Below are positions 4,161 through 27,062 of a stretch of 46,846 bases of DNA, piece by piece; position 1 is the first letter of the stretch; every line of letters starts with the position of its first letter. The notes below the pieces were generated by a model. That model was not told the origin of the DNA, did not search any database, and was given only the letters and a program-made list of their open reading frames with translations. Source of the stretch: a virus. The position numbers were made by a program, and so were the translations under genes. Where the stretch lies: the IMG/VR virus record IMGVR_UViG_3300045999_003312, positions 1 to 46,846 of that record; one strand, 5' to 3'.

Positions 4161-4184
4161 GATTGTTTGTTTTAATTGGTTAAG

Positions 4185-4214
4185 ACATGAGTGAGCTCGT
4201 GAACTCGCTCATGT
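4185..4214. other. Intergenic inverted repeat (hairpin)
   Basis: ACATGAGTGAG, an 8-base loop, then CTCGCTCATGT: an 11-bp stem with one wobble pair when read as RNA. It lies in the only sizeable gap (4161-4234) between coupled genes of the leftward operon. No T-run follows on either strand, so it is not a standard terminator; an RNA processing or stability element, or an operator, are possibilities. Confidence 0.5.
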
Positions 4215-4234
4215 TTCGACTATTGAAGTGCTCA

Positions 4235-4438
4235 TCAGTTAACCTTCTGTGGGTGCAATTTCCAATAGTCGTCTGCATGCAACGTTGTCTCCGGGAAAAC
4301 AACCACCCAACCATTGTTGGTGTACTCGGTGCGATGCAATTTGTAGCGGATGTCCTGACGTCCGTTGTTACCTTTGATTTGGTCAACTACCACCAACGTC
4401 CCGTTGATGATAGCTTTGAATGTTTGTAGTGTTGTCAT
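4235..4438 (-). CDS. Small hypothetical protein
   Basis: Sixty-seven residues (MTTLQTFKAIINGTLVVVDQ), beta-rich with a pattern like a small barrel: NGTLVVVDQIKG, YKLHRTEYTNNG, WVVVFPETTLHA. The ATG overlaps the upstream TGA by four bases. A different frame on the same strand (4180..4386) is shorter and uncoupled, so I treat it as a shadow. Function unknown. Confidence 0.65.
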   Translation of the reverse strand: MTTLQTFKAIINGTLVVVDQIKGNNGRQDIRYKLHRTEYTNNGWVVVFPETTLHADDYWKLHPQKVN

Positions 4439-4578: not shown

Positions 4579-4688
4579 TATCTGTATCTAAAAGGGATTA
4601 ATAATTTGCGTGTCTTGATTAGTACGCCTTCTTGGAAGAAACCGATGATTTCGTAACGGCCTTCAATTTTGATTACTCTAGTTTCCAT
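4578..4688 (-). CDS. Micro-protein (36 aa)
   Basis: A 36-codon frame from ATG 4688, 11 bases inside the stop of the upstream gene, to TAA at 4578-4580. The product (METRVIKIEGRYEIIGFFQE, ending LLIPFRYR) is short, basic and beta-like. Coupling on both sides is the main evidence. Confidence 0.57.
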   Translation of the reverse strand: METRVIKIEGRYEIIGFFQEGVLIKTRKLLIPFRYR

Positions 4689-4860
4689 GGTTGATTAATT
4701 TAATGTTGTTTAAAAATGCAGTTCTACGTTCACCATTCATACGTTCATATACAAATGTGGGGCTTTGGATGTCGTCTTGTTCAATAGAAACAATAAGTAC
4801 ATTGTCTTCAATTATTGGGCTTCGATTAACTCCAAATGTTACTCTTTTACCTATCTCCAT
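4678..4860 (-). CDS. Small hypothetical protein, first gene of the leftward operon
   Basis: Sixty residues from ATG at 4860 (MEIGKRVTFGVNRSPIIEDN). An upstream ATG at 4899 gives a 73-residue form, but the inner start has the A-rich leader (AAAAAACACAAC) seen in front of other genes here. The product is beta-rich and could be a small barrel. It is the first gene after the large structured RNA, so its message may begin with, or be cut from, that RNA. Confidence 0.62.
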   Translation of the reverse strand: MEIGKRVTFGVNRSPIIEDNVLIVSIEQDDIQSPTFVYERMNGERRTAFLNNIKLINHGN

Positions 4861-4899
4861 GTTGTGTTTTTTTAGTGGTGCAGTGAGTGTCGCTCTCAT

Positions 4900-5430
4900 T
4901 AATTAGTCATCCTAACTGCACCTAATGCTTTGCATGCCACGTGAAACTGCATGCCCTCTGTTATTCCCTACAGCCGGAGCTGTGGTTCCGACATGCGACC
5001 ACCTGAGTAATGTATCGCATGCCCTAGGTTCGTCCTAGCTTTGTGTTATCGTATAGACCTCAGCACCGCTTATGGTCTCAAATAATATCGTATGTCAAAG
5101 AACTGAGCTAGTGTAGCAGACCTACCTTTGAACCACTTAAGCCTTGTGAACTCCCCGAAGGGCACTTAGTTAAGCTTTATCGTTTCGGTCACCTTTAGCA
5201 ACATGGCTCGTCGCTTGTACGTCTAAAGGATTGCATTTAATAATTTAATTGACTGATAGGCTAAGGGTTTTAATGCTCGCTTCTCGCATTCATGTTCGTT
5301 CTCAGTAGGTTTCTCCTAAGCTCTTATTACTTTCATCTAGTCTCTGTCGCAGTGACTGCTAGAACTAAGAGTCGTAATTGAATCCCCCATGTGTGTCGCT
5401 TGTCAAGTGTTTTTGTTAGCTCGTTTGCTT
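4900..5430 (-). ncRNA. Large structured non-coding RNA (about 525 nt)
   Basis: No credible reading frame occurs here, yet the leftward transcript folds into many short, well-closed hairpins. Examples by plus-strand position: ACAGC/GCTGT (4970-4983, tetraloop), CATGCGA/TCGCATG (4992-5021), CTAGG/CCTAG (5024-5038), GTAG/CTAC nested in TCAAAG/CTTTGA (5095-5131), CCC-UUCG-GGG (5153-5162), AATGC/GCATT (5272-5290) and TAGG/CCTA (5306-5318). A promoter sits just upstream (5435-5464). Size, density of tetraloops and phage setting recall the giant ornate RNA classes (GOLLD, ROOL), but I cannot match it to either by sequence. The 3' end is uncertain; no T-run terminator is visible before the gene at 4860, so it may also be a processed leader. 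Confidence 0.68.
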
Positions 5431-5434: not shown

Positions 5435-5464
5435 CAAATATAAGGCAACTATTTAGATTGTCAA
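5435..5464 (-). promoter_or_regulatory. Promoter of the large RNA
   Basis: Read leftward: TTGACA (5464-5459), a 16-base spacer, then TATATTTG (5442-5435), an excellent fit to the Bacteroidota TAnnTTTG promoter box plus an upstream TTG box. Transcription should begin near 5430. The upstream box is one arm of an inverted repeat, TTGTCAA (5458-5464), 7 bases, TTGACAA (5472-5478), which could be an operator. Confidence 0.7.
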
Positions 5465-5478: not shown

Positions 5479-5973
5479 TTATTTTCACATTTTATGCTAA
5501 TTTATATTCATTCTAAATAAGGACATGTTGCTCTTTGAATGTAAAGTGTTGATTTATAGGTAGTTATGAATTAATGCAAAACAGGATTCCATCAAACTGC
5601 TTTGGTATTTATTTATGTAGGTAGGTGTAACCCTCACCTTCAGCACGCGCAACCAAACTAACGAACGCAACGAACGGCCGGCAGATTGATAGGCCGAACG
5701 GCATGCGCGCCGGTTGGTTTGCCTGCTGTTCTATTTAACATAATGCAAATTATAAGACAGCCCTAGCGCGCGACACGACAAACGACAGCGCGCTGTGTAG
5801 GCCGTCTGTATTGGTATTGACGTCAAACGACAGCCCGACTGGAAAAGCCAAAAAATCCGGCCGAAAAGTTCAGAAAGCAGACCCCCCGGGGTCAAATACA
5901 AACCGTTTCCCCCGAGCGGTCGGTCGCGCCAGATGGGGGTATTACCCAAAACCTCCATACATCTAAAAATTAG
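5479..5973. other. Divergent intergenic region with GC-rich, inverted-repeat island
   Basis: About 500 bases without a supportable gene, between the leftward RNA and the rightward gene block. The first ~150 bases are A/T-rich. From about 5640 the composition changes sharply to GC-rich, with inverted repeats AGCGCGC/GCGCGCT (5765-5771, 5788-5794), GACCCC/GGGGTC (5880-5885, 5888-5893), a TGACGTCA palindrome near 5819 and several TAGGCCG-type words. A 75-codon leftward frame (5731..5958) lies here but has no family look or start context. An origin, packaging site or regulatory hub would fit; the sequence alone cannot choose. Confidence 0.5.
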
Positions 5974-6962: not shown

Positions 6963-8531
6963 ATGGTAGTAAAACATGTACATTTAGGCGACGAAGGTCG
7001 TCAAAAGCTCATTAAAGGCATCAAAACGATCGCTGGAGCTGTAAAAAGCACATTAGGTGCGCGAGGCCGCACTGTGTTGATTGAATCAGAACATCACGTC
7101 GGTGGTATTACAGTAACAAAGGACGGTGTGACGGTCGCTAAGTCGATCAATCTCTACGACCCGGTTGAGAACTTGGCTGTTATGATGATGCGACAGGCTG
7201 CTGAGAAGACGGCTACTGTTGCAGGTGATGGTACGACAACAAGTATCGTGATCGCTGAGGCTATTGTTGATGCAGCCACAGAGTTCCTCAGCCCTGAGGA
7301 TAACGTAACCGAGGTGATTCGTGAGATCAATGACATCACAACTGACGTCGTGACGCACTTAACCAAACGAGCTAAGAAACTATCAGGCAAGAAGCTAAAG
7401 GACGTGGCGTCTATCAGTGCCAACAATGACACCACTATTGGTGGTATGATCGCTGACGCGTTTAGTGAGGTGAAGATGGTATCTGTTGAGAACAGCAAGG
7501 ACCACAACACATATGTTGAGGTGATCAAGGGGATTAAGGCTGACAGAGGTTGGACTAGTCGCCACTTCATCACTGACTACAAGCGTCAGGAGGCTGTCCT
7601 AGAGAATCCATACGTCTTAATCACTGACCAGGAGATCAATAACTTACTCAACATTGAGAGAATCCTACAGCATGTAGTCGCGCAGAACAAGTCGTTACTC
7701 ATTATCGGTGAGATGACGCCTGCTGCTTTGAACACGTTGAACATTAACGTGGCTCAGGGTAAAATCAAGGCATGCCACATTATGCCACCAAACTTTGGGT
7801 ACCGTCAGAAAGACTTGTTGGAAGACCTAGCGATTGCTTTGGACGGCACGTATTTCAGTGAGGACACTGGTGATGACCTGTCGTTGATCGACGTTGCGCA
7901 CCTAGGTAGATGCGCTAAGGTGATCGTTGGTAAGGACAACACGATCTTTATGCCCTATGCTAGCAGCCAAGAAGCTATCGACAATCGCATTGCTGACATC
8001 AACGAGACAATCTTCGACGGCATCACTAAGGAGGAGATGGACAACCGCAAGGAGCGAGCGGCCAACCTATCTGGTGGTGTTGCTGTAATCTACGTAGGTG
8101 CGTTGAGTGACATTGAGCAGAAGGAGAAGCGCGACCGAATTGACGACGCTGTCTGTGCAGTTGAGGCAGCCTTAGAGGAGGGTATCCTTCCTGGTGGTGG
8201 TGTTGCCCTGTTTGAGTACGCTAATAATAATCTACGCGGTAAGATTGGTGCTGCTGAGCGTATTATGTTCAGAGCTATAACAGCTCCAATGTGGCAGATA
8301 CTTGTGAACGCTGGTAAAGACGCTCAAGAGATCATGGACGGCATCCTACCGTTCCCTAACGAGGGCTACGACGTCAAAGGAGAGCAGTACGGTGACATGA
8401 TGAAGCTTGGTATCATTGACCCAGCGAAAGTCACTAAGAACGCCTTATTGAACGCTGTGTCGGTAGCCACGACGATTATGAGCACAAACGCAATTATCAC
8501 AAATATCAGAGCAGATGAGAGTATTAAATAA
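6963..8531 (+). CDS. groEL: Chaperonin GroEL (Cpn60), phage-encoded
   Basis: A 522-residue group I chaperonin, slightly shorter than the usual ~545. Visible family marks: the TKDGVTVAK loop with Asp54, the ATP-binding GDGTTT at residues 88-93, the equatorial DDAVCAVEAALEEGILPGGG segment with Gly411-413 and the Asp preceding it. The C-terminus lacks the Gly-Met tail of bacterial GroEL and ends NIRADESIK. It should form ATP-driven folding rings, probably for virion proteins. It has its own promoter after a terminator and overlaps groES by 17 bases. The divergent middle (apical) domain suggests a phage-specialised chaperonin, not a recent host copy. Confidence 0.95.
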   Translation: MVVKHVHLGDEGRQKLIKGIKTIAGAVKSTLGARGRTVLIESEHHVGGITVTKDGVTVAKSINLYDPVENLAVMMMRQAAEKTATVAGDGTTTSIVIAEAIVDAATEFLSPEDNVTEVIREINDITTDVVTHLTKRAKKLSGKKLKDVASISANNDTTIGGMIADAFSEVKMVSVENSKDHNTYVEVIKGIKADRGWTSRHFITDYKRQEAVLENPYVLITDQEINNLLNIERILQHVVAQNKSLLIIGEMTPAALNTLNINVAQGKIKACHIMPPNFGYRQKDLLEDLAIALDGTYFSEDTGDDLSLIDVAHLGRCAKVIVGKDNTIFMPYASSQEAIDNRIADINETIFDGITKEEMDNRKERAANLSGGVAVIYVGALSDIEQKEKRDRIDDAVCAVEAALEEGILPGGGVALFEYANNNLRGKIGAAERIMFRAITAPMWQILVNAGKDAQEIMDGILPFPNEGYDVKGEQYGDMMKLGIIDPAKVTKNALLNAVSVATTIMSTNAIITNIRADESIK

Positions 8532-8775
8532 GTTCTTACTCGTAAAGAAAGTAGCTGAGCAAAAGCAGACTAGCACCGGTTTATTATTAACCGGAGCTGA
8601 TTCTAATGATATGCGGTATCATAAGGCGGTTACCCACTCTGTGGGTGACGGCATCACCGGAATAAATGCCGGCGATACCATCCTATACGATAAAGTGCAA
8701 AGCCATGAAATCATCCTTGATAATGAAAGGATGACTATAATTCAGGAGAGGGACGTTGTTTGCGTCTTCGATTAA
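8515..8775 (+). CDS. groES: Co-chaperonin GroES (Cpn10)
   Basis: Eighty-six residues, close to the usual ~95. The order matches GroES: a beta-strand start (LNKFLLVKKV), a mobile loop (QTSTGLLLTGAD), a middle strand, then GDTILYDKV, an EIILDNERM strand and the C-terminal RDVVCVFD edge. It starts 17 bases before the end of groEL, so the lid and ring are made together. It overlaps the 3' end of the convergent gene at 8735..9220 by 41 bases, so convergent transcription could damp both. Confidence 0.9.
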   Translation: MRVLNKFLLVKKVAEQKQTSTGLLLTGADSNDMRYHKAVTHSVGDGITGINAGDTILYDKVQSHEIILDNERMTIIQERDVVCVFD

Positions 8776-11128: not shown

Positions 11129-12526
11129 ATGTGGATATTTAATGCTATAGCAAATGCCGTAGGCAATAATTTCATTGGCACTCCAAACTATCTATTTGGC
11201 CTATTATTCAATAGAGTTCAAGCTGACGGTGGTGTTACTGAGGCTCAGCAGTGTACTATTAATGAGCTGACTGATCTGCAGAACGACAATCTGTTGTCAT
11301 CTGCATCACTTTTAGTAACTCCGAATGCCTATAAAGCATCAAAGTTATATTCCATCATTCCAACTAATGGCAATGGAGATTTGACGTTCACAAGATCTAC
11401 TACCGCTACACGAACTAATTCAAGCGGAATCTTAGAAAGCGTTGCTCTTAACATTCCACGTCTTGAATACCCATCAGGTGGGTGTCCTTCAATACTATTA
11501 GAACCGCAGAGAACTAATATCATTGCGAGAAGTGAAGAATTTAACACTTGGTTACTTTATCAATTTTCATCAATTGCAACAAATACTGCAACTGCACCTA
11601 ACGGAACATTAACTGCTGATACTTTAATAAGCGGTGTTAGTGTAGGAAGGCAGGAAGTTTACAAGTCGCCAAATAGTGCCTTTGTAAATGGCACATCTTA
11701 TTCAGTAAGTGTTTATGCGAAAACTAATGGCAAAACTTGGCTTTATCTTGGAACTGATGCAAACCAATCAGTTTATTTTAATGTTGTAAATGGAACCGTT
11801 GGTAATGCAAGTTCAGGCTTTACTGGTTCCATAGTTTCGGTTGGTAATGGTTGGTATAGGTGTATAATCAACTTTGTATTTGGAACGGGAGCAACTGTAA
11901 ACCAAATTATAATTGGTAATGCAACTACTAACGGAACTCCGAGCGATTCAGGTAATGGTGTGTTAGGTAACTATATTTGGGGTTGTCAAGTTGAAGCAGG
12001 CGCATACGCTACCTCTTACATACCTACAACATCTGCGAGTGTTACGAGGAATGCTGACGTAGCATCTAAGACGGGAATCACATCTTTAATTGGTCAAACG
12101 GAAGGAACTTTGTTTGCAGAAATAGAAGTCAGTAAATTAATAGGAGCTGCTTCAAGATACATTTTTCACATTTCAGATGGTACTGCAAATAATCGTGTTT
12201 ATATGGCTTTTTCAGGAGCAAGCTCAAATGTTTTAAGAGGAAGGATATTTAACGGAGGTACTTTACAATGTAGCATTGACACATCTGCAATTACAACTAT
12301 AGGAACTTATAAACTTGCTTTAGCTTATAAAAATAATGACATTGTTTTTTATGTAAATGGTGTTCAAATAGGTGTTGATACAAGTGCAACTATTCCTACT
12401 TGCAGTAGAGTAGATTTAGGTCAAAACTATGCAAATACATCACAATTATCAGATGGTATTAAAGCCTCAGTGCTTTGGAAAACTCGCTTAACTAACGCTG
12501 AACTCGCACAACTTACAACGATATGA
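11129..12526 (+). CDS. Tail fibre/adhesin with lectin-like domain
   Basis: A 465-residue protein. The N-terminus (1-35) is hydrophobic and may attach to the virion. Residues ~85-135 (FTRSTTATRTNSSGILE, then PRLEYPSGGCPSILLEPQRT) form a block common in Bacteroidota phage and prophage tail proteins. A carbohydrate-binding-module-like region follows (~135-300: TADTLISG, VYAKTNGKTWLYLG). The last 150 residues resemble a LamG/concanavalin A-like fold (YKLALAYKNNDIVFYVNGVQ, ending LTNAELAQLTT). Probably binds host surface glycans. It starts one base after the previous stop. Confidence 0.78.
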   Translation: MWIFNAIANAVGNNFIGTPNYLFGLLFNRVQADGGVTEAQQCTINELTDLQNDNLLSSASLLVTPNAYKASKLYSIIPTNGNGDLTFTRSTTATRTNSSGILESVALNIPRLEYPSGGCPSILLEPQRTNIIARSEEFNTWLLYQFSSIATNTATAPNGTLTADTLISGVSVGRQEVYKSPNSAFVNGTSYSVSVYAKTNGKTWLYLGTDANQSVYFNVVNGTVGNASSGFTGSIVSVGNGWYRCIINFVFGTGATVNQIIIGNATTNGTPSDSGNGVLGNYIWGCQVEAGAYATSYIPTTSASVTRNADVASKTGITSLIGQTEGTLFAEIEVSKLIGAASRYIFHISDGTANNRVYMAFSGASSNVLRGRIFNGGTLQCSIDTSAITTIGTYKLALAYKNNDIVFYVNGVQIGVDTSATIPTCSRVDLGQNYANTSQLSDGIKASVLWKTRLTNAELAQLTTI

Positions 12527-12843
12527 TTTATAAACTCACATACAATGACAAAGCTACAGCAGTAGCTGACTTATACGCCAAAGGCATTCTCATAGAAGTT
12601 GATGGCATTGATGGAGAAAAACACGAAGCATACGGAGAAGGAGTTCAAGCTGTCGTTGAGCTTGGCTTAATCTGTTTAGATCCAACGGTTGATCCACCTA
12701 TATACGCAGACGGTTATCACTACGATGTGATGGCTGATAATGTGTATGACTTTGGCGCTAACTTGGTTGACCCAGTAAATCCTAAACACGCATTTGCAGG
12801 TCATGCTATAACTGAAGAATATGTACCAGCAGAGGGTATCTAA
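12523..12843 (+). CDS. Fibre-associated hypothetical protein
   Basis: A 106-residue acidic protein (MIYKLTYNDKATAVADLYAK, ending HAITEEYVPAEGI). The ATG overlaps the fibre gene's TGA by four bases. Its position after a fibre suggests a fibre chaperone or accessory subunit, but no motif proves it. The pattern of a KLTYNDKA start followed by a DG-YHYDVM stretch is one I associate with phage tail-fibre neighbours. Confidence 0.66.
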   Translation: MIYKLTYNDKATAVADLYAKGILIEVDGIDGEKHEAYGEGVQAVVELGLICLDPTVDPPIYADGYHYDVMADNVYDFGANLVDPVNPKHAFAGHAITEEYVPAEGI

Positions 12844-13150
12844 TCACGGCACCATACTGAATACATCTACAGATCTATGTGTAGGGGCTGATAATAACCA
12901 ATCGGTTGTTATGTCTATGCGCGTAAATCACCTATCGGCATGTACGTTGGTCTTCTCTTTTTACGATGCATCAGCAGCAACCACAACGACAATATACCAG
13001 GTCAGTCTAGCGGCCGGAGATATACTCACTGACACATTTCCTTATTACCTAGATGAGGGAGACAAGATAACAGCCACATCGACACCAACAGGAGCCAAAT
13101 TTACAGTTGAAGTTGAAAACGGCCCAGCACTAGGAGTAAGATGCAAGTAG
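12821..13150 (+). CDS. Small beta-rich structural protein
   Basis: A 109-residue protein (MYQQRVSNHGTILNTSTDLC), rich in Thr/Ser/Ala and alternating hydrophobics (TLVFSFYDASA, TIYQVSLAAGDIL, DKITATSTPTGAKFTVEVE). It overlaps the previous gene by 23 bases and the next by 10. Looks like a small virion surface or fibre-associated beta-sandwich. Function unknown. Confidence 0.68.
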   Translation: MYQQRVSNHGTILNTSTDLCVGADNNQSVVMSMRVNHLSACTLVFSFYDASAATTTTIYQVSLAAGDILTDTFPYYLDEGDKITATSTPTGAKFTVEVENGPALGVRCK

Positions 13151-13740
13151 TCACATCAGCAGGCGTAGAATACGGCCGGGATCACCTACAGATCTTAGGG
13201 CCAAATGGTCGGCCCAAACCGGGCACGACAAACTATGGCCTTTATGCTCAGACAGCGTCAAGCACACCTGTAACAAATACCACAACTGAGACGTCACTTT
13301 TAGATGGTGGTGTTGGCACATTATCAATACCTGCAAATGGTTTTAATGTAGGCGATAGCTTTCATGCAATATTAACTGGCTACATAAGCTCTGTAAACAA
13401 CCACACGCTTAGGATTAGAATTAAGGCTGATGGGGTGGCACTTGCTGATACAGGAGTTATTACAATGGCTGGATCAACAAACAGGCATTGGAAGCTAGAG
13501 GTATACTTTACAGTTAGGGCATTAGGTACATCAGGAACGGCTAAAATTGCAACTGCAGGCACATTTATGTACACCAAAGATGCTTCAACATCTTTTGAAG
13601 GAACTAACTTTAGTACCGAGACAGCAACTGGATTTGATACAACTGTGGCCAATACGCTTGTCATCACAGCTCAATGGGGTACAGCCAGTGCGGGAGATAT
13701 AATATATAGTGACATATTCACCCTAAACAAAACATACTAA
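13141..13740 (+). CDS. Putative fibre or virion surface protein
   Basis: A 199-residue protein with Thr/Ser/Gly-rich beta strands. Residues ~45-199 read as one domain: LDGGVGTLSIPANGFNVGDS, HTLRIRIKADGVALADTG, KLEVYFTVRALGTSG, LVITAQWGTASAGD and IYSDIFTLNKTY. This type of beta-sandwich is common at the end of phage tail or fibre proteins. No enzyme motif. Stop and the next start overlap by one base. Confidence 0.68.
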   Translation: MQVVTSAGVEYGRDHLQILGPNGRPKPGTTNYGLYAQTASSTPVTNTTTETSLLDGGVGTLSIPANGFNVGDSFHAILTGYISSVNNHTLRIRIKADGVALADTGVITMAGSTNRHWKLEVYFTVRALGTSGTAKIATAGTFMYTKDASTSFEGTNFSTETATGFDTTVANTLVITAQWGTASAGDIIYSDIFTLNKTY

Positions 13741-14165
13741 TGCGATATTTACTAATCATACTACTACTAGCGTCATGTAGCCCGATCAAGCGTTTTACTC
13801 GACTGATCGAGAAGTACCCGTATTTAATTACAACTGATACAGTTGTAATCAAAGACACCATCACGCTATATGTGCCAGAGGTGCATACTGACACTGTGGT
13901 TACTCTCAAGGAACTTATCGATACAGTGACTCTAACTAAAGACAGAGTCACTGTGAAAACATGGTACGTTCCAAAGGAAAAGAAGGTTTATATTCAAGGA
14001 AAGTGCGATCCAATCTATGTTACTAAGATAGTAGAGCGTAAGATACCTGTAAAGTATTATGAGAAATACCCATGGTGGAAGAAGCTGCTAAACAACCTTT
14101 TATCTTTTTTAATTATCTTTGTTATACTCTATACGCTGTATAGACTATCCAAAAAACTAGTATGA
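13740..14165 (+). CDS. Lipoprotein with C-terminal membrane helix, candidate unimolecular spanin
   Basis: A 141-residue protein. MRYLLIILLLASC is a lipoprotein signal with lipobox LASC and Cys13 as acylation site. The middle (14-112) is beta-rich (DTVVIKDTITLYVPEVHTD, KDRVTVKTWYVPKEKKVYI). A C-terminal hydrophobic helix lies at ~116-136 (LLNNLLSFLIIFVILYTLYR) with a basic tail. Outer-membrane lipid anchor plus inner-membrane C-terminal helix is the layout of u-spanins such as T1 gp11, which fuse the two membranes at lysis. It sits directly before holin and amidase genes, overlapping the holin ATG by four bases. Strong by context and topology, not by sequence family. Confidence 0.72.
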   Translation: MRYLLIILLLASCSPIKRFTRLIEKYPYLITTDTVVIKDTITLYVPEVHTDTVVTLKELIDTVTLTKDRVTVKTWYVPKEKKVYIQGKCDPIYVTKIVERKIPVKYYEKYPWWKKLLNNLLSFLIIFVILYTLYRLSKKLV

Positions 14166-14605
14166 AAACAAACGCCATAATTATTTTGTCTAGCATTCTT
14201 ACAATTCTTGCGCCGGTAGGTCCGCTGCTTACCATTGCCATGATTTCAATAGGATTAGATGTCTGTTTTGGCGTGTGGAGATCATATAAAAAACGTGAAG
14301 ACCAAGAGGTGAAATTTTGGGATGTAGTCCAAAGTCATCGTTTGTTAGCTACGGCAGCAAAAATAGGTATCTATACAGTAGCGATAACATTCTTTTACAT
14401 AGTAGAGAAGTACATCGCAGGTGATATTATTGCACACTTTATATCAATAGAGCTATTACTGACTAAAGCAGTGGCTCTATTTTTTGTTTTTATAGAGGTA
14501 AAGAGTATGAATGAGAGCTATAAAGATGTTACTGGTAAAGATATACTAGCTGCATTCAGAAAGTTCATTACAGGGCTTAAATCAGAAAGCGACAAATGGC
14601 GATGA
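14162..14605 (+). CDS. Phage holin
   Basis: A 147-residue membrane protein with hydrophobic segments at ~5-38, 62-86 and 93-114. The motif ISIGLDVCFGVWRSYKK matches the conserved LD..xGvxxA/S region of the phage holin family seen with TcdE/holin-4 types. The C-terminal half has a charged cytoplasmic tail (KSMNESYKDVTGKDILAAF). It should form membrane lesions that release or activate the downstream amidase. It overlaps the spanin-like gene by 4 and the amidase gene by 10 bases. Confidence 0.82.
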   Translation: MKTNAIIILSSILTILAPVGPLLTIAMISIGLDVCFGVWRSYKKREDQEVKFWDVVQSHRLLATAAKIGIYTVAITFFYIVEKYIAGDIIAHFISIELLLTKAVALFFVFIEVKSMNESYKDVTGKDILAAFRKFITGLKSESDKWR

Positions 14606-15276
14606 AATTACCATCTAATATTAAGCAGGTTCCAATGAAAGAATCTCAGTACATGAAGACTGAGACAAAGAAGAGAATGATTGTATTGCATCACACAGCT
14701 GGTAATAGTTCAGGTGTAAGCACAATAAAAATGTGGGACAATGATGCAAGAGGTCGTATTGCGACTTGCGTTGTAATCTCAGGAAAAGGACTATCTAAAG
14801 ATACGTATGACGGAGAAATATGCCAGGCATTTAGTTCTAAATATTGGGGTTATCACCTTGGCTTAAAACAAGACATATTTAGAGCAAAAGGTGTACCATA
14901 CATATCAATCGATCCTATGTCAATTGGTGTTGAGATCTGTAACTGGGGTCCACTCACAAAGAAGGGTAGTAAGTTTTACAACTATGTAGACAGAGAGGTT
15001 CCTATTGATCAAGTTTGTGAGTTAGATAAGCCGTATAAAGGACGTAAGTATTACCATGCATACACAGACGCTCAGATTGAGTCTTTGCGGCAACTGATGT
15101 TGTATTGGGGTGATTTGTATAATATTGATCTTACATATCGCGAGCAAGATATGTGGGATATTTCAGTTAAAGGATTAAAAGGAGAGAACGGTGTTTATAC
15201 TCACAACTCATTCAGAAAGGATAAGAGTGATATCTATCCATGTCCAAGAATGATTGCCATGCTTAAAACTCTTTAA
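14596..15276 (+). CDS. Endolysin: N-acetylmuramoyl-L-alanine amidase
   Basis: A 226-residue amidase_2/PGRP-type enzyme that cuts between muramic acid and L-Ala of peptidoglycan. Catalytic marks: MIVLHHTAGN with His32/His33, SIGVEICNWG in the middle, and a C-terminal HNSFRKDKSDIYPCP with His203, Lys210 and Asp212 as likely zinc ligand and catalytic residues. No signal peptide, consistent with holin-dependent release. It starts 10 bases before the end of the holin gene; a second ATG at 14602 is also possible. Confidence 0.9.
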   Translation: MAMKLPSNIKQVPMKESQYMKTETKKRMIVLHHTAGNSSGVSTIKMWDNDARGRIATCVVISGKGLSKDTYDGEICQAFSSKYWGYHLGLKQDIFRAKGVPYISIDPMSIGVEICNWGPLTKKGSKFYNYVDREVPIDQVCELDKPYKGRKYYHAYTDAQIESLRQLMLYWGDLYNIDLTYREQDMWDISVKGLKGENGVYTHNSFRKDKSDIYPCPRMIAMLKTL

Positions 15277-15286
15277 TTATTTTTAC

Positions 15287-15294
15287 TAACTTTG
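15287..15294 (+). promoter_or_regulatory. TAACTTTG promoter box
   Basis: TAACTTTG fits TAnnTTTG, sits in the 22-base gap after the endolysin gene and exactly 4 bases before ATG 15299. An upstream TTG box is not evident. Confidence 0.5.
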
Positions 15295-15298
15295 CTAC

Positions 15299-15430
15299 AT
15301 GAAGAAAATTGAACAGTCAGCTAAGAAGGATGTCAAGGTAAGTCGCCCTGGTATTCACGCTAAGTGTAAGACATCTAAATTAAAGTCTTCTAAGAATTAT
15401 AAAAAGCAAAATCGAGGCCAAGGACGATGA
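15299..15430 (+). CDS. Small very basic phage protein (43 aa)
   Basis: A 43-codon frame, ATG 15299 to TGA 15428-15430, which overlaps the next ATG. The product (KKDVKVSRPGIHAKCKTSKL, then KSSKNYKKQNRGQGR) is about 40% Lys/Arg. I recall the RPGxHAKxKTSK and YKKxxRGQGR pieces from tiny proteins in many phages; function unknown. It directly follows a promoter box. Confidence 0.65.
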   Translation: MKKIEQSAKKDVKVSRPGIHAKCKTSKLKSSKNYKKQNRGQGR

Positions 15431-15828
15431 AAGTACAGAACTATATCACTGAAACACCAAGCACAACATCAAAAGTATTTGGTACTAATGCTGCTGGAAA
15501 TACAGTTAACTTCGATGTCCCTGCATTATTGGCCTTGAATCAGGCTCCTAGTGTAATCGCGACTAACGCGCTTACGCTCGCAACCCTAACAAACGTAAAC
15601 ACATACTTCACTGGAACGGCAGGTGCGTCTTTTGCAATAACTCTTCCAGCATCAAATTCAAATCTTGATGGCGTAAAGTATGTCATCATGTCAACAGCAA
15701 CTAGAGCTACAACAACATGGACATCAGCTGGTGCTACCATTGTTGGTGCTCCTTCTACGTTAACAGCAAACACACCGGTATGTCTTCAGTATAGTCATGC
15801 CAACACAACTTGGTATATATCTTTATAA
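15427..15828 (+). CDS. Beta-rich structural protein
   Basis: A 133-residue Thr/Ala/Asn-rich protein (MKVQNYITETPSTTSKVFGT) with strands FAITLPASNSNLDGVKYVIM, ATIVGAPSTLT and a YSHANTTWYISL end. The C-terminal W-Y-I-S-L type end and composition suit a fibre or tail-associated protein. It starts in the stop of the small basic gene (ATGA) and leads into another fibre-like gene after 1 base. Confidence 0.65.
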   Translation: MKVQNYITETPSTTSKVFGTNAAGNTVNFDVPALLALNQAPSVIATNALTLATLTNVNTYFTGTAGASFAITLPASNSNLDGVKYVIMSTATRATTTWTSAGATIVGAPSTLTANTPVCLQYSHANTTWYISL

Positions 15829-15829
15829 C

Positions 15830-16627
15830 ATGGCAACAATTCCATCAGGACAGAAGTTCCACACAGTACCTTCAAACGTTCAGACAGCTGAGCGCGGATC
15901 AGCATTGGCTAACTCACAACGTGAGATTTACACTATGCAAGATATCATTGACACAGTTCCTGCAGGAGCTGCAGTTAACCCAACAAGCGGAAAGCTTCCA
16001 TATAATAACGCGGGTGTGTTTGCTGATAGTGCAATAACAAATGACACTGCAAATAAAAGAAATGTATCTAATTTTAATTATAGAATCAATAGATTAACGG
16101 CAGACGGAGCCTCAAAATTAGATTTATTTACAGATGCAAATAGTGGTTCAACCAGCGTTACGGGTGGAACTGGAATACAATGGGGTGTTACTAATTTTAA
16201 CCCAGGTTTAGGAATTACAAACTTTAATGATTGTTCAATAGTTGTAGACACTGCCAGCGCAAATGCTTTTGGAAGTCCATTGTATTTTAAAACGCAAAAT
16301 CAAATAAGTTTAGCGGTACCTTCAAGTGATACGCAAGTAACAAAATTGAGTATTATTCCCGGTAATTTCATAACACAAATTGGTGGAATAGGCGTGCAAA
16401 CTGAAAGTCCAAATTGTGCATTTCACGTTCTTCAAAGCGGTTCAAGACCAAGTTGGCAAAGCAATAATGCCATCGCACGTTTTGAATGGAATATGGGCGG
16501 AGTAGTGTTTCCAAATGTAACAACTTCAAATAGAGGAATGATGGCTCCTGAGTTCGGTATGGTTATTTACAATAGTACAACAAATAAGCTACAAGTTTGG
16601 AATGGGGCTTGGGTAGATTTACATTAA
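15830..16627 (+). CDS. Tail-fibre-like structural protein
   Basis: A 265-residue protein from ATG 15830, one base after the previous stop; the frame back to 15797 overlaps that gene and is not needed. N-terminus MATIPSGQKFHTVPSNVQTA, then IYTMQDIIDTVPAG and a PTSGKLPYNNAGVFADSAI linker. The middle repeats Asn/Ser/Gly beta strands. The end EFGMVIYNSTTNKLQVWNGA is a form common at the C-termini of phage fibre proteins. Probably a trimeric fibre component. The 3' half is more A/T-rich than neighbours, hinting at exchange. Confidence 0.7.
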   Translation: MATIPSGQKFHTVPSNVQTAERGSALANSQREIYTMQDIIDTVPAGAAVNPTSGKLPYNNAGVFADSAITNDTANKRNVSNFNYRINRLTADGASKLDLFTDANSGSTSVTGGTGIQWGVTNFNPGLGITNFNDCSIVVDTASANAFGSPLYFKTQNQISLAVPSSDTQVTKLSIIPGNFITQIGGIGVQTESPNCAFHVLQSGSRPSWQSNNAIARFEWNMGGVVFPNVTTSNRGMMAPEFGMVIYNSTTNKLQVWNGAWVDLH

Positions 16628-16649
16628 TTAATATATAAAAAATAAAAAA

Positions 16650-16961
16650 ATGGCTTTAATAATTAACGCAACAGAAAGTAAAAAATTACCTATTACTGGA
16701 ACGTCTTTTGAATTACAATCAATTTATACAAGAATAAATTGGAACGCACAAATTAATGGAATTAGCGTTCAGTATACTCTTGTACCTTTTGAAACTAAAT
16801 CATTTTATCTTAATAACGAACCTTGCCCTATAGCATTTGAAGGAGGCTCTGGATTTGTTCAGTTAGCAGAAAATCAAACACAAGACCTTGTAACAATCCA
16901 TGAACTTGTAAAAGCAGAACTTGAAGCAAAAGGATTTGAAGTAACTATTGACCTTGCGTAA
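16650..16961 (+). CDS. Hypothetical protein (103 aa)
   Basis: A 103-residue protein (MALIINATESKKLPITGTSF). It has beta strands (YTRINWNAQINGISVQYTLV, KSFYLNNEPCPIAF) and an acidic helical end (HELVKAELEAKGFEVTIDLA). A/T-rich. Follows the fibre gene after 22 A/T-rich bases and overlaps the next gene by one base. Position suggests a fibre accessory role; function unknown. Confidence 0.65.
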   Translation: MALIINATESKKLPITGTSFELQSIYTRINWNAQINGISVQYTLVPFETKSFYLNNEPCPIAFEGGSGFVQLAENQTQDLVTIHELVKAELEAKGFEVTIDLA

Positions 16962-17089
16962 TGACTAAGGAACAAGCAATTCAAATTCTAGAACAAGCTT
17001 TAAGCGCGGCTACTCAAAAAGGTGTATACAATCTTAATGATGTATCAACTATTCTAAATGCATTACAATTAATTAAAAATGAAAAATAA
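16961..17089 (+). CDS. Small helical protein (42 aa)
   Basis: A 42-codon frame, ATG 16961 overlapping the previous TAA by one base (TAATG) and a TAA 11 bases inside the next gene. Helical: KEQAIQILEQALSAATQKGV, then DVSTILNALQLIKNEK. Function unknown; coupling on both sides supports it. Confidence 0.6.
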   Translation: MTKEQAIQILEQALSAATQKGVYNLNDVSTILNALQLIKNEK

Positions 17090-17318
17090 AATCACAAAAG
17101 AAGAGCTCGAAGCGTTGGTTAACGCTAACCGAGTTTACAGAGACTTAAAATTCAATCTAGCAGACATCGAGATGAGCGTTCGTCGTTTAGGCGAGCAGAA
17201 AGAGCTCACGATGCAGCAATTAGAAACAGCTGCTGTAGCTCTCACTCAAGAGCAACAATCCATCTTTGATAAGTATGGCGATGTCAGTGTAAATCTACAA
17301 ACAGGTGAGTATAATTAG
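17079..17318 (+). CDS. Small coiled-coil protein
   Basis: A 79-residue protein, mostly helical with heptad-like spacing (KEELEALVNANRVYRDLKFN, then VRRLGEQKELTMQQLETAAV). Overlaps the preceding gene by 11 bases and the following by 14. No known family. Confidence 0.66.
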   Translation: MKNKITKEELEALVNANRVYRDLKFNLADIEMSVRRLGEQKELTMQQLETAAVALTQEQQSIFDKYGDVSVNLQTGEYN

Positions 17319-17526
17319 AAAAATTTCCATTGGTCCTGACTACATGAAGTGCATGCACTATATGGTTGGTCAGACTGTCCTAGATAGAACTTGGGAGATC
17401 AACACCATCCGAAAAGAAGACGATGGTGCTATCTGCGTTTGGATTATCAAGGACGGTGAGATTATTAAATGGAAATCATTCTCTAATGCAATGCCCATTG
17501 CAATAGAATACAAAATAGATTACTAA
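17305..17526 (+). CDS. Small hypothetical protein with GTG start
   Basis: A 73-residue protein. The N-terminal GTG start (17305) overlaps the previous gene by 14 bases; the alternative ATG at 17344 would drop an ISIGPDYMKCMHY segment that looks like part of the fold. Beta-rich (YMVGQTVLDRTWEINTIRKE, GAICVWIIKDGEIIKWKSF). It ends one base into the next start. Function unknown. Confidence 0.62.
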   Translation: MSIIRKISIGPDYMKCMHYMVGQTVLDRTWEINTIRKEDDGAICVWIIKDGEIIKWKSFSNAMPIAIEYKIDY

Positions 17527-18089
17527 TGAAATCACCATACTGCTTCATCATCAAACCAATTGGTCAGAGGCGGTACGATAACATAAGGAAGTTCGGAAAT
17601 ACCGACTTCTATATCAGCTCATCTCAAGAAGACCATAAGACATCTAATCGCTTCGCTGAAGTGGTAAGTGTTCCTATTTACTACAACGGCCCGGTACAAC
17701 CAGGCGACACTGTTGTAGTTCACCACAATGTGTTCAAGTACTACAACGACATGAAAGGTCGTCAGAAAAGTAGTTGGAACTATATCATAGACGATCTGTT
17801 TTTAGCTGAGTTAGATCAGGTCTATCTTTACAAGAGAGATGCCGATTGGCAGGCCGTTGATCCGTTTATCTTTATCAGACCAATACCAACTGAGGATAAG
17901 TTAATTAGCTCTACCGGGGCTCATGAGGCGTTGTGGGGTGAGGTTGTGTATAAAACGACCACCATTCCCAACGTGAACGTTGGAGATATAGTCTCATTCA
18001 CACCCGACAGCGAATATGAATTTATAATAGATGGAGAGACACTCTATCGAATGTATAACAAGAACATATGTCTAAAAAGGGAGAAATAG
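17526..18089 (+). CDS. Tandem GroES-like (Cpn10-fold) protein
   Basis: A 187-residue protein that reads as two successive GroES-type barrels. Second half (~111-187): PFIFIRPIPTEDKLIS, then GEVVYK, NVNVGDIVSFTPDSEYEFII, DGETLYRMYNKNICL, the same order as GroES (RVIVKR, GEVLAVG, VGDIVIF, EEVLIM, DILAI). The first half (~3-105) repeats it: YCFIIKPI, AEVVSVPIYY, VQPGDTVVVHHNVFKYY, YIIDDLFLAELDQVYLY. The phage also encodes canonical GroEL/ES. Its place just before terminase suggests a head-assembly role; capping of GroEL or a structural use of the fold are both open. Assigned by eye. Confidence 0.6.
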   Translation: MKSPYCFIIKPIGQRRYDNIRKFGNTDFYISSSQEDHKTSNRFAEVVSVPIYYNGPVQPGDTVVVHHNVFKYYNDMKGRQKSSWNYIIDDLFLAELDQVYLYKRDADWQAVDPFIFIRPIPTEDKLISSTGAHEALWGEVVYKTTTIPNVNVGDIVSFTPDSEYEFIIDGETLYRMYNKNICLKREK

Positions 18090-18349
18090 TAGAGGCTGCT
18101 AAGCAGGCTATCGATGAATTGATCAAGGTACTTAAGTCACCTATCATCACTCATGCTGAGGACGACATATCGGCTGACAAGATGAAGAACGCAGCGTCAG
18201 CTAAGCGTTTGGCATTTGAGGATGCTATGTATATGCTCAATAAGATTGAGGAGGAGGAGAATAAGGCTGCAGAGGGACCAACAGTAGAAATTACTGTTGG
18301 TAGATCAGGATTCGCAGAAGGACGAGCAAAAGCTAAGAATGGAAAATAA
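18068..18349 (+). CDS. Candidate terminase small subunit
   Basis: A 93-residue helical protein (EIVEAAKQAIDELIKVLKSP, then DKMKNAASAKRLAFEDAMYM, LNKIEEEEN) ending GRSGFAEGRAKAKNGK. It is immediately upstream of the large terminase and overlaps its start by 11 bases. Small size, helical make-up and position fit a small terminase (DNA recognition), but no helix-turn-helix is clear and family similarity is not shown. Confidence 0.5.
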   Translation: MSKKGEIVEAAKQAIDELIKVLKSPIITHAEDDISADKMKNAASAKRLAFEDAMYMLNKIEEEENKAAEGPTVEITVGRSGFAEGRAKAKNGK

Positions 18350-20558
18350 GTTATACTCAATAGTAACTGACTACGTCAATAAGACTGCTCTTAATACTAA
18401 GAACAGTAAGAAGTCGTGGGACTATGGTTACAACAAGGAGTATGACCTTATCGTTATATCTAAGGACGGAACCATTGGTGAGATCTATGAGATAAATGGC
18501 CTAAAGGTTGCGTTGCCATCTACTCCTAAAGTAGTAGAGAACAGAGACAACAGGTGGCAGCCATTAGACTATCCAGCTGAGTTGCAGAAAATCAAGTCAA
18601 TATTTGATTGGAACCGAAGAGATAATGCGTTCAAGCTGAAGTACGTCGACATGATCGAGACTGAGTTTGAAAGACGCGAGAAAGGCTTTTGGTTTATCAA
18701 CAATGGCAAGCCAACCTACATGACTGGAACGCACTACATGTACCTTCAATGGACCAAGATTGATATTGGTCTGCCTGACTTCCGTGAGTCCAACCGAATC
18801 TTCTATATATTTTGGGAGGCATGTAAGGCAGACAGCCGAGCGTTTGGTATGTGTTACCTAAAGAACCGTCGTTCAGGTTTCTCATTCATGTCGTCTGCAG
18901 AGACGTCAAACACAGGCACAATTGTCAGAGATGCGCGCCTTGGTATTCTATCCAAGACCGGATCGGATGCCAAGAAGATGTTTACCGACAAGGTTGTGCC
19001 AATTGTAAGAAATTACCCCTTCTTTTTCAAGCCGATCCAGGACGGTATGGACAATCCGAAGACGGAGTTGGCCTTCCGTGTTCCTGCGAGTAAGATTACG
19101 CGCAAGAATATGGATGAGGAGCGCGATGATGACATAGAAGGGCTAGATACTACCATCGACTGGAAAAACACCGCAGACAACAGCTATGACGGTGAGAAGC
19201 TACTTTTACTTGTACACGACGAGAGTGGTAAGTGGGAGAAGCCTGAGAACATCTTAAATAACTGGCGAGTCACTAAGACTTGTTTACGATTAGGATCTAA
19301 GATTATTGGTAAGTGTATGATGGGATCCACCTCAAATGCACTCAGTAAGGGTGGTGAAAACTTCAAGAAGTTGTTCTACGACAGTGACCCAACCAAACGA
19401 TCTGCCAATGGTCAGACCAAGTCAGGGCTTTACTCTTTGTTTATTCCAATGGAGTGGAACATGGAGGGCTTCATTGACGAGTATGGTTGGCCAGTGTTTG
19501 AGGATCCTAAGAAGCCTATCATGGGTATTGATGGTGAGGAGATTACGATGGGTGTAATTACCTATTGGAATAATGAGGTGGCTGCAATGAAGTCAGACTC
19601 AGACGCACTCAACGAATACTACCGTCAGTTCCCTAGAACAGAGTCGCATGCGTTCCGTGATGAGAGCAAGTCGTCTCTATTCAACTTAACTAAGATATAC
19701 CAACAGATTGACTACAACGATGCGATGATAAAAGATCACGTTCTTACAACAGGATACTTTCATTGGAAGAACGGTGAGAAGGATACTGAGGTCATTTGGA
19801 CGCCTGATCCAAAAGGGCGTTTTGTAGTATCGTGGATTCCTGATGCTAGGATGCGTAACAATGTCATCAAGAAGGACGGCAAATTCTATCCTGGTAATAA
19901 AGACATCGGTGTGTTTGGGTGTGACCCTTATGACATCTCAGGTGTCGTTGGTGGGGGCGGATCTGCAGGAGCATTGCATGGCATTACCAACTTTCACATG
20001 GAAAATGCACCAACTAATCACTTCTTTTTGGAATATATTGCTCGTCCACAGACTGCTGAGATATTTTTTGAGGATGTGTTGATGGCTTGTTTTTTCTACG
20101 GAATGCCTATACTTGTAGAGAACAATAAACAGCGACTATTGTACCACTTTAAGAACAGAGGCTACCGTCCATTCTCAATGAACAGACCTGACAAACATAC
20201 GTCTAAGCTATCAAAGACAGAGCTTGAGTTGGGTGGTATTCCCAACTCTAGTGAGGACGTAAAGCACGCGCATGCTAATAGTATCAACACATACATCGAA
20301 GAATATGTTGGCATTGATGCTGAAGGAAACTATAGAGAAAAAGAAAGTATGGGTGACATGTATTTTACGAGAACGTTAAATGACTGGGCCCGATTTGATA
20401 TTAACAACCGAACTAAACACGATGCCTCGATTAGTTCAGGATTGGCATTAATGGCATCAAGAAGACACCTATTTATACCTGTTAAACAGGAATCTAAAAT
20501 AAGTGTTAAATTTGTAAGATATAAGAATACTGGCATAAGAAGCGAAATTATCGAATAA
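18339..20558 (+). CDS. terL: Terminase large subunit (packaging ATPase/nuclease)
   Basis: A 739-residue protein from ATG 18339, overlapping the small gene by 11 bases; a frame back to 18297 would need TTG. The ATPase half has a variant Walker A around residues 175-182 (KNRRSGFS), Walker B LLLLVHDESG with Asp294-Glu295, and a GSTSNA coupling-motif candidate. The nuclease half has GCDPYD (Asp529) and KHDASISSGLAL (Asp695), the expected metal-binding acids. It should power DNA packaging and cut concatemers. Larger than the usual 450-600 residues, as in crAss-like and related Bacteroidota phages. The portal gene starts in its stop. Confidence 0.88.
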   Translation: MENKLYSIVTDYVNKTALNTKNSKKSWDYGYNKEYDLIVISKDGTIGEIYEINGLKVALPSTPKVVENRDNRWQPLDYPAELQKIKSIFDWNRRDNAFKLKYVDMIETEFERREKGFWFINNGKPTYMTGTHYMYLQWTKIDIGLPDFRESNRIFYIFWEACKADSRAFGMCYLKNRRSGFSFMSSAETSNTGTIVRDARLGILSKTGSDAKKMFTDKVVPIVRNYPFFFKPIQDGMDNPKTELAFRVPASKITRKNMDEERDDDIEGLDTTIDWKNTADNSYDGEKLLLLVHDESGKWEKPENILNNWRVTKTCLRLGSKIIGKCMMGSTSNALSKGGENFKKLFYDSDPTKRSANGQTKSGLYSLFIPMEWNMEGFIDEYGWPVFEDPKKPIMGIDGEEITMGVITYWNNEVAAMKSDSDALNEYYRQFPRTESHAFRDESKSSLFNLTKIYQQIDYNDAMIKDHVLTTGYFHWKNGEKDTEVIWTPDPKGRFVVSWIPDARMRNNVIKKDGKFYPGNKDIGVFGCDPYDISGVVGGGGSAGALHGITNFHMENAPTNHFFLEYIARPQTAEIFFEDVLMACFFYGMPILVENNKQRLLYHFKNRGYRPFSMNRPDKHTSKLSKTELELGGIPNSSEDVKHAHANSINTYIEEYVGIDAEGNYREKESMGDMYFTRTLNDWARFDINNRTKHDASISSGLALMASRRHLFIPVKQESKISVKFVRYKNTGIRSEIIE

Positions 20559-22981: not shown

Positions 22982-23613
22982 TGGCATATATAGAACATAA
23001 CTTCTTCCCTTTAAAAGTATTCGTTAGAAATGAATACATGTATCAACATCAAAAGGGACAAGGAGAATTTACACCAGGTGTTATAATGTCGGTTAGATGT
23101 ATGCCTGGTCAGGCCGCACTATTCCAAGTTCTATTAGAGAACGGAGTAATGCGCGATAAGTTACCAAGCCATGCGTTGTTAACTAAGCCTGAGCTACCTG
23201 ATTCAGACTTGCCGTTTCACTTCTTACAGATATGGAACTGCTTCTCTTACAACTTTACGTTACTGCATCTATCTTATGTGTATGACACAAAGGTTGAGGT
23301 TTATATGAAGGATCATAAGTTCTATCCGGGTAGTTACTACGCCACCATTAACTGGGGAGCGAATGACTTGAATACTGATCTGTCTTTAGCAGAGGATGCA
23401 TTGGAGCATAAGAGTCATCACATCATTTTACTTGACAATGGTCAGATAGCTCTTCAACCAAACAACCGTATTAAGTGGTCTGAGCCGTCATTTGTTACAA
23501 AGCCATTCCCAGAGCGCCCTGACTATCTAGTGAATACAGACTACTACAACTGCGAAGGCTTTGATAAGTGGCATACAGAGGATTCCGATCGTATGTTCTA
23601 CGATAATGAATAA
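22981..23613 (+). CDS. Conserved head-region hypothetical protein
   Basis: A 210-residue protein starting in the portal stop (TAATGG). It is aromatic-rich (HNFFPLKVFVRNEYMYQHQK, FHFLQIWNCFSYNF, FYPGSYYATINWGANDL), with mixed beta and loop content and no enzymatic motif. Position between portal and scaffold suggests a head assembly or virion protein. I recall similar proteins after the portal in Bacteroidota podoviruses, without a known role. Confidence 0.72.
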   Translation: MAYIEHNFFPLKVFVRNEYMYQHQKGQGEFTPGVIMSVRCMPGQAALFQVLLENGVMRDKLPSHALLTKPELPDSDLPFHFLQIWNCFSYNFTLLHLSYVYDTKVEVYMKDHKFYPGSYYATINWGANDLNTDLSLAEDALEHKSHHIILLDNGQIALQPNNRIKWSEPSFVTKPFPERPDYLVNTDYYNCEGFDKWHTEDSDRMFYDNE

Positions 23614-23626
23614 ATAAAATAATTAT

Positions 23627-23634
23627 TAACTTTG
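23627..23634 (+). promoter_or_regulatory. TAACTTTG promoter box
   Basis: TAACTTTG 15 bases before ATG 23650, in the 36-base gap before the scaffold and capsid genes. A plausible promoter for high expression of capsid genes; no clear upstream TTG box. Confidence 0.5.
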
Positions 23635-23649
23635 TCAAAATTAAATTAA

Positions 23650-24771: not shown

Positions 24772-24776
24772 AAAAA

Positions 24777-26201: not shown

Positions 26202-26216
26202 GAAGACCAATAATAC

Positions 26217-26247
26217 GAGAGGGGTTACGGCCCCTCTCTATTTTTTT
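26217..26247 (+). terminator. Rho-independent terminator after major capsid gene
   Basis: GAGAGGGG, TTACGG loop, CCCCTCTC, then TATTTTTTT: an 8-bp GC-rich stem with a T-run, 15 bases after the capsid stop. It likely separates the high-level capsid message from downstream genes. Confidence 0.9.
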
Positions 26248-26267
26248 AATAATTTAAATTATATCAA

Positions 26268-27032
26268 ATGAACAGAGTAAAGCTAGAGCCTAAGGATAGG
26301 ACCTATTTATTAAAATTGAAAGAAGCTCCATTGAGCTATTTTATCGCACACAAAGACACTCCTCGTAAACGTCTTTTGTATTACAATGAAGAGACCAATA
26401 CGAATCACCCACTTCGCTACGCGCGAAATTCAAACACCCCATTTCAAGACCAACAGGATGCCAATGTAATTGTTGAGCCTATCGTATTTGAAGATGGTGT
26501 TCTTACAGTTCCAAAAACAAATCCAGTCCTTCAAGAGTTCTTGCATTACCATCCTGGTAATGGAAATGAATTTTATGAATTTGATGCTGAACGTGATGCT
26601 CAAGAAGATGTTCAAGAGTTATTCTCTGAGATTGATGCATTGATACTTGCTCGTGATTTAGCTGATAAAGACTTCAATACTCTTGAGGCAGTAGCTAGAT
26701 TGGTATTAAGTTCAAATGTAGACAACATGAGCTCTACAGAGATTAAGCGTGACATGATGTTATTTGCTAAGCGTTATCCACAAGACTTTATGGAGGCTGC
26801 ATCTGATCCACTTCTTAAGATCAATAACTTTGCAGCTCGCGCATTTACATCAGGTTACTTTACATTCCGTGGTAACAAGGACATTCACTTCAACCTAAAA
26901 GACAATAAGAAACGTTTGATGACTGTTCCATTTGGACATGACAAAGTTCACGCACTTGCATCATACTTACAGTCAGATGAAGGAATTGAGCTATATAAGT
27001 TCCTTGAAGAGAAGTTTTCAGGAAATGATTAA
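26268..27032 (+). CDS. Conserved head-region hypothetical protein
   Basis: A 254-residue protein after the capsid terminator (MNRVKLEPKDRTYLLKLKEA). First half has DTPRKRLLYYNEETNTNHPL and PIVFEDGVLTVPKTNPVLQE, second half helical (AEVARLVLSSN-like segment, TEIKRDMMLFAKRYPQDFME, FAARAFTSGYFTFRGNKD). No enzyme motif. I recall a protein of this layout downstream of capsid genes in Bacteroidota phages; role unknown, perhaps head completion or stabilisation. Confidence 0.7.
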   Translation: MNRVKLEPKDRTYLLKLKEAPLSYFIAHKDTPRKRLLYYNEETNTNHPLRYARNSNTPFQDQQDANVIVEPIVFEDGVLTVPKTNPVLQEFLHYHPGNGNEFYEFDAERDAQEDVQELFSEIDALILARDLADKDFNTLEAVARLVLSSNVDNMSSTEIKRDMMLFAKRYPQDFMEAASDPLLKINNFAARAFTSGYFTFRGNKDIHFNLKDNKKRLMTVPFGHDKVHALASYLQSDEGIELYKFLEEKFSGND

Positions 27033-27062
27033 GATTTTATATGGTAGTAACAAATAATATTA

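Follow-up and report, generated by a model that had tools for sequence, protein, structure and literature searches.

What occupies the gap between the two divergent transcription units of this virus, and what might it do there? The stretch of DNA analyzed (the window) is a piece of viral sequence 46.8 kb long, and all coordinates given are window positions. It encodes terminase, portal, and other virion genes, and its source is a virus of Bacteroidetes-type bacteria. Within the gap, the initial annotation had placed an ornate, leftward-transcribed RNA at 4900 to 5430 and had interpreted it as a member of a giant RNA class such as GOLLD or ROOL, as a new class, or as a folded leader preceding the leftward operon. 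The observation of a leftward RNA element was confirmed, with its conserved bounds mended to approximately 5430 to 4877 (∼554 nt). The interpretation stood in part: the data support a new class and a leader and do not support membership in GOLLD or ROOL.

Some other features of the window were also noted. Phage GroEL (6963 to 8531) and GroES (8515 to 8775) are conserved through the group. A GC-rich block at 5843 to 5966, which immediately precedes the rightward promoter TTAGTATATTTGCACT, is conserved in most relatives and is possibly an origin or regulatory DNA. The frame at 40021 to 46845, of at least 2,275 aa and open at the window end, contains a GNAT acetyltransferase domain, and its product resembles a polyvalent protein that is injected or forms part of the virion. 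A weak match at 36684 to 37427, below the Pfam cutoff, to the C-terminal domain of the crAss-phage muzzle protein hints at a distant tie to crAss-like podoviruses.

A structured RNA between the leftward promoter and the first gene

The leftward unit begins with the following features.

5435 to 5464, minus strand: promoter TTGACA-N16-TATATTTG of the leftward transcript, from sequence, with TAnnTTTG kept in relatives
4877 to 5430, minus strand: mosaic structured leader RNA, ∼554 nt, from homologous leaders and covariation
4678 to 4860, minus strand: first gene of the leftward early operon, a 60-aa ORF with no Pfam match
4178 to 4244, minus strand: type I hammerhead motif between early genes, with one bulged base in stem II

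The promoter that had been claimed was found on the minus strand, with TTGACA at 5464 to 5459, a 16-nt spacer, and TATATTTG at 5442 to 5435, a Bacteroidetes-type TAnnTTTG promoter element. In relatives, TAnnTTTG is followed a few bases on by the GCAAACGAGC hairpin, and the same layout recurs. The region had also been described as lacking a reading frame, and no ORF of at least 50 aa was found to start inside 4900 to 5430 on the minus strand. Reading TAG or TGA as sense codons opened nothing convincing, and the homologues were found to contain no conserved protein-coding frame, which favors an RNA. The 3′ bound of the RNA, at 4877, lies next to the start of the first leftward gene at 4860.

Homologues were collected with the neighboring rightward gene and GroEL as baits, yielding 88 IMG/VR loci. 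Most of those reaching far enough contained the same gap between divergent units, filled with related frame-less sequence. Further members were obtained by pattern scans with the 5′ motif, the T-loop module, and the D-module. Most 5′-motif matches outside the family (3300006674 contigs and others) proved to be coding or chance, and an extra segment that some relatives have between positions 5981 and 5986, considered as a second RNA, was actually an additional rightward gene (L021). No bacterial or prophage carrier turned up when 84,980 species genomes were scanned with the D-module pattern, and blastn of the RNA region against INPHARED likewise returned no match. Among named phage records, terminase relatives were found in MW202828.1, an uncultured complete genome (69%), the cultured Flavobacterium Elemovirus (44%), and Cellulophaga phages (37 to 38%). 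The homologous leaders measured 268 to 696 nt. In the relatives examined, the leftward promoter precedes the RNA and the first leftward gene follows it, which makes the RNA a leader, as one option of the initial annotation had it. Its position was constant regardless of the identity of the first gene, which varied among relatives.

The tetraloop hairpins and the long-range stem claimed earlier were all located in the sequence: the UUCG tetraloop hairpin CCCUUCGGGG at 5162 to 5153, the UCCG tetraloop hairpin at 4985 to 4967, and a 7-bp long-range stem, GGTGCAG/CTGCACC, spanning 4922 to 4877, all on the minus strand. The leftward strand displayed no excess of folding energy, with a minimum free energy of −131 versus a shuffled mean of −131.6 (z of 0.10), and the opposite strand gave a z of 0.66 against its shuffles. 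Since the single-sequence fold was only as stable as shuffled sequence, the window alone is no proof of a structured RNA.

Covariation was assessed with homologues from approximately 60 related phage contigs and was decisive in three independent parts, favoring a structured RNA. Alignment A1 covers the 3′ domain, with 23 sequences and six helices. Standard pairs made up 97.9% of its cells, two-sided changes were observed in 27 of 36 pairs, and none of 500 shuffles matched its pairing, two-sided-change, or covariation scores; slid versions were only 24 to 38% paired. Helices 1 to 3 of A1 played no part in picking the sequences, and these were paired in 97.5%, 100%, and 100% of cells, with two-sided changes in 4/7, 6/7, and 6/7 pairs, respectively. 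Alignment A3, comprising 35 sequences of the terminal three-way junction, was 99.6% paired, with two-sided changes in 14 of 15 pairs. The A3 finder demanded pairing of the acceptor and one hairpin and left the other hairpin free, and the free hairpin paired in 99.3% of cells. Junction members found by BLAST and missed by the strict finder differed in the loop and not in the pairing. In alignment A4, covering module C, 92.2% of cells were paired and 10 of 11 pairs exhibited two-sided changes. A tree-aware null was made for this analysis, in which substitutions were re-placed on the branches of a FastTree tree and column pairs were scored by an APC-corrected G-test. Under this null, 16/36 pairs in A1, 8/15 in A3, and 7/11 in A4 were significant, and all column pairs above the null maximum fell inside the proposed structure.

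In the leftward reading of A1, G-U cells numbered 36 and A-C cells 7, an excess expected of RNA from that strand, so it is the leftward transcript that folds. The same strand asymmetry bears on the idea that the region acts purely as DNA, as an origin of replication or a packaging site containing inverted repeats. Such an element could well be sited in a divergent hub, where a part outside the RNA (5843 to 5966) is also conserved, but strand-asymmetric G-U pairing, a three-way junction with asymmetric constant loops, a promoter fixed at the 5′ end, and hammerheads at the 3′ end of related leaders make it hardly credible.

Known RNA families were then compared. Rfam gave no match at gathering score over the window, with only chance-level results in the RNA region at E values up to 10, and no family match over the relatives, where the only finding was a 17-nt match to the tmRNA 3′ end in one locus (L186). 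The covariance models of GOLLD, ROOL, OLE, HEARO, tmRNA, RNase P RNA, and the group I intron did not match, and the window contains no tRNA or tmRNA genes. Because nothing in Rfam matches, the RNA is not GOLLD, ROOL, OLE, or tmRNA; membership in the GOLLD/ROOL class is further disfavored by the lack of tRNA genes nearby, and no evidence was found for membership in any named family. A covariation-supported family without an Rfam match fits the new-class option, and the data thus support a new RNA family in approximately 60 related viruses. No earlier description of this RNA was found in the literature searched.

Exchangeable modules and a host-type boxA

Comparison of the leaders resolved the window RNA into these parts, from 5′ to 3′ along the transcript.

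5418 to 5430, minus strand: constant 5′ hairpin AAGCAAACGAGCT, near-invariant at the transcript start, with AGC/GCU here and GGC/GCC in others
5239 to 5408, minus strand: module A, from module comparison; its slot holds module B in other phages and is empty in many
5114 to 5235, minus strand: module C with the UUCG hairpin (5153 to 5162), from A4 covariation
5092 to 5103, minus strand: boxA-like GTTCTTTGACAT, enriched in leaders; GTTCTTTGACATATTG precedes 23S in Bacteroidota
4990 to 5090, minus strand: module D2, replaced by D1 in other phages; its hairpin at 4990 to 5023 carries conserved TACTCAGGTGG (A1 helix 1)
4967 to 4985, minus strand: hairpin CCACAG..CTGTAGG with UCCG loop (A1 helix 2)
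4932 to 4954, minus strand: hairpin GCATGCAGTTTCACGTGGCATGC with constant loop (A1 helix 3)
4877 to 4922, minus strand: 3′-terminal three-way junction, from A3 covariation; single copy per genome

The covariation alignments cover module C, the 3′ domain, and the terminal junction; module A was recognized by module comparison, and its structure is putative. The leader of the early operon is a mosaic in which modules are swapped in a roughly fixed order. In most leaders the constant hairpin (A)GCAAACGAGC(T) comes first, followed by the A-or-B slot, module C, and boxA; an optional module K and then one of D1, D2, F, G, H, or I come next; and the D-core/GTTTCACG hairpins, an optional T-loop module, and the 3′ element complete the RNA. 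From 59 leaders, approximately 39 arrangements were counted by simple motif detection, an approximate figure in which some differences are motif misses. The shortest leader, at 268 nt (L052), has most modules lost or replaced. In two loci (L178 and L185), the D1 module and boxA were observed in a different context, where the RNA runs on into other sequence, and no copy of the three-way junction was found in the L185 genome with the junction model.

Swapping of modules between constant ends could indicate that the modules are variable determinants against co-infecting phages, or decoys for host defense. P4 CI RNA and the C4 RNA of P1 and P7, which are RNase P-processed early-leader RNAs and short antisense immunity RNAs, have a similar layout: like them, the present RNA is an untranslated early leader with a tRNA-like processing site, a parallel for which the literature searched gave no direct source. 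It differs from these antisense RNAs in that no antisense target was found in a limited search. The helices vary by compensatory change while the loops stay constant, a pattern more suggestive of conserved binding factors from the host or phage than of variable pairing, and a specificity or immunity role is distinctly unlikely.

Most leaders carry GTTCTTTGACAT(ATTG), and a strict GTTCTTTGACAT was present once in 25 of the 39 distinct leaders. Its density was 1.41 per kb in leaders versus 0.018 in phage loci at large, an enrichment of approximately 80-fold. About one third of the leaders contained a degenerate boxA copy only, and none was visible in L064, L065, and L067. In species genomes, GTTCTTTGACATATTG matched mostly Bacteroidota, and 35 of 121 genome matches sit 39 to 196 nt before the 5′ end of 23S, which is the place of the spacer boxA. 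Judged by this match, GTTCTTTGACAT is the host's boxA, as upstream of 23S rRNA in Bacteroidota. BoxA was also found in the hub leaders of MW202828.1 and the cultured Cellulophaga phage phi46:3, and in the elemo phage leaders the hammerhead was present and boxA was not found.

The 3′ element and hammerhead motifs

The three-way junction of the window consists of a 7-bp acceptor-like stem and two 4-bp hairpins, followed by ACTAA. The acceptor is directly adjoined by a T-arm-like hairpin with a 7-nt loop (AGCGACA), an arrangement supported by A3 and resembling part of a tRNA, and from this adjacency the hairpin would be expected to stack coaxially on the acceptor. Neither the canonical T-loop UUCRANN nor a CCA end is present in the window junction, so cleavage by RNase P or RNase Z can only be guessed at.

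The junction is the 3′ element of the window and most relatives, and it was found to be interchangeable with other elements. In L139, L074, L161, and L186, the same place is taken by an 11- to 12-bp minihelix with a UUCGAYU T-loop and GG in the linker; L117 has a noncanonical minihelix, and L105 has a plain 11-bp hairpin. In still other leaders the 3′ end is formed by a hammerhead motif, of type I in L053 and L049 and of type III in L136 and the cultured elemoC and elemoD. The 3′ end therefore looks like a processing element, to judge from these motifs. The literature searched contained no account of hammerheads that form the 3′ end of a large structured leader and trade places there with tRNA-like forms.

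Hammerhead motifs also occur downstream of the leader. The motif at 4178 to 4244 in the window possesses the type I core (CUGAUGA..GAAA..UC, consistent with CUGANGA, GAAA, and UH) and three helices, with a 6-bp stem I (GGUUAA/UUAACC) and a long stem III; relatives carry type I hammerheads with perfect stems. In the loci fetched with GroEL, 24 distinct type I hammerheads were identified, all on the leftward strand; the opposite strand and 1.38 Mb of shuffled sequence contained none. Compact type I hammerheads lie between early genes in many loci (for example, L037, L041, L049, and L053), with up to three per genome. The Rfam hammerhead model gave no match to 4178 to 4244 at E values up to 1 and likewise did not reach the motifs of relatives; it may lack sensitivity for these hammerheads because their stems are short. 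In elemoD and elemoC a type III hammerhead ends the early leader, and elemoC also has type I between genes. The hammerheads in Flavobacterium elemoD and elemoC (L311 at 12348, plus strand; L188 at 4532 and 2743, minus strand) are absent from the feature tables of the records.

Hammerheads that flank phage genes have been suggested to process long phage transcripts (PMC3088659). Those described here resemble them in the conserved core and in the several copies flanking phage genes within one transcript. They differ in being compact type I motifs with a 6-bp GGUUAA/UUAACC stem, below Rfam detection, and in also forming the 3′ end of a large leader, where those of the cultured elemo phages are type III.

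The first AUG lies 15 to 45 nt past the 3′ element, a spacing compatible with a leader that acts purely in cis on the first gene as a riboswitch, a ribosomal-protein-like leader, or a translational control element. The first gene is not the same among relatives, no terminator or alternative helix masking the start site was noticed, and the module variation is too great for a single aptamer, all of which make such a role very unlikely.

A proposed rRNA-like leader for the early operon

On balance, and by a slight preference, we regard the RNA as the phage counterpart of the leader of an rRNA operon, in which boxA would promote antitermination of a long early operon and the leader would then be cut off or insulated. 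Two features expected of such a leader are present. The host boxA sequence lies within the promoter-proximal leader (5103 to 5092), and the leftward genes extend from 4860 to the left end of the window. The corresponding leader of the cultured elemoD heads a unit that extends from the hub over 12391 to 30594, 18 kb in one direction. That NusB-S10 binds boxA, and that boxA acts in processive antitermination, is established in lambda. The same holds for rRNA (PMC4807359 and PMC10250234).

Under this antitermination reading, transcription would start at approximately 5430, and the emerging RNA would present a host-type boxA, as in the 16S-23S spacer, among its folded modules. NusB, S10/NusE, NusA, and NusG may then load onto the host RNA polymerase, which would run through the long leftward operon without termination. 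The 3′ element would separate the leader from the first mRNA or shield the mRNA from the leader fold, with cleavage possibly by RNase P or RNase Z for the tRNA-like forms and by the self-cleaving hammerhead in relatives. The other modules presumably bind partners of their own.

The likeness to known leaders is incomplete. As with lambda nut (boxA) and HK022 put, a promoter-proximal RNA precedes a long early operon, and boxA is present in most members; unlike nut and put, this leader is far larger and modular, with no boxB/N or put hairpin pair identified and a putative activity. The rRNA leader and spacer boxA has the same GTTCTTTGACATATTG upstream of 23S in Bacteroidota, and in both cases boxA is followed by structured RNA and by tRNA-like or processing sites, but the phage leader heads a protein-coding operon and contains no rRNA sequence.

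Counting against an antitermination leader, there is no obvious need for 300 to 550 nt of ornate modules. In the main rival reading, the leader, cut off at the tRNA-like site or hammerhead, is itself functional, for example as a multimer or scaffold, and boxA only boosts yield or rRNA-like folding. GOLLD and ROOL are large phage-encoded RNAs that form cages (PMC12286853), and the present RNA resembles them in being phage encoded, several hundred nucleotides long, and rich in covarying helices, and resembles GOLLD in combining a conserved part with a variable one. In favor of a free RNA are the elaborate domains, whose loops are in many cases constant, the size of 268 to 696 nt, and 3′ ends that resemble processing sites in almost all forms observed. 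Unlike GOLLD and ROOL, it has no Rfam match, heads an early operon with boxA rather than lying near tRNA islands, exchanges its modules wholesale, and ends in a swappable processing-type element. Because relatives lose or replace most modules, as in the 268-nt leader, it is also a poor fit to one conserved quaternary assembly. We consider a free-standing function somewhat unlikely, and it is compatible with the antitermination leader, from which the RNA is possibly released as a separate molecule.

More tentatively, and short of an even chance, both aspects may be combined in a new kind of RNA, a domain-shuffled early-operon leader with at least 10 structured modules exchanged between phages in roughly fixed slots, together with a host rRNA boxA, tRNA-elbow mimics, and interchangeable 3′ processors (tRNA-like junction or hammerhead), such that the phage would run its early operon much as an rRNA operon is run and would release a large structured RNA from it. 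Large phage RNAs and antitermination leaders are known kinds; their combination and the domain shuffling are new, as far as was searched.

The family adds a large phage RNA, strongly supported by covariation and absent from Rfam, which occurs in a widespread Bacteroidetes phage group whose cultured relatives include Elemovirus and Cellulophaga phages. Exchange of entire RNA domains is a rare observation, and the leaders serve as natural experiments in how RNAs are built. As one site takes either a tRNA-like junction or a hammerhead, RNA processing can be put to a specific and inexpensive test. To our knowledge, phage antitermination in Bacteroidetes appears little studied; if the boxA reading is true, early transcription in Bacteroidetes phages would be tied to the rRNA antitermination machinery of the host.
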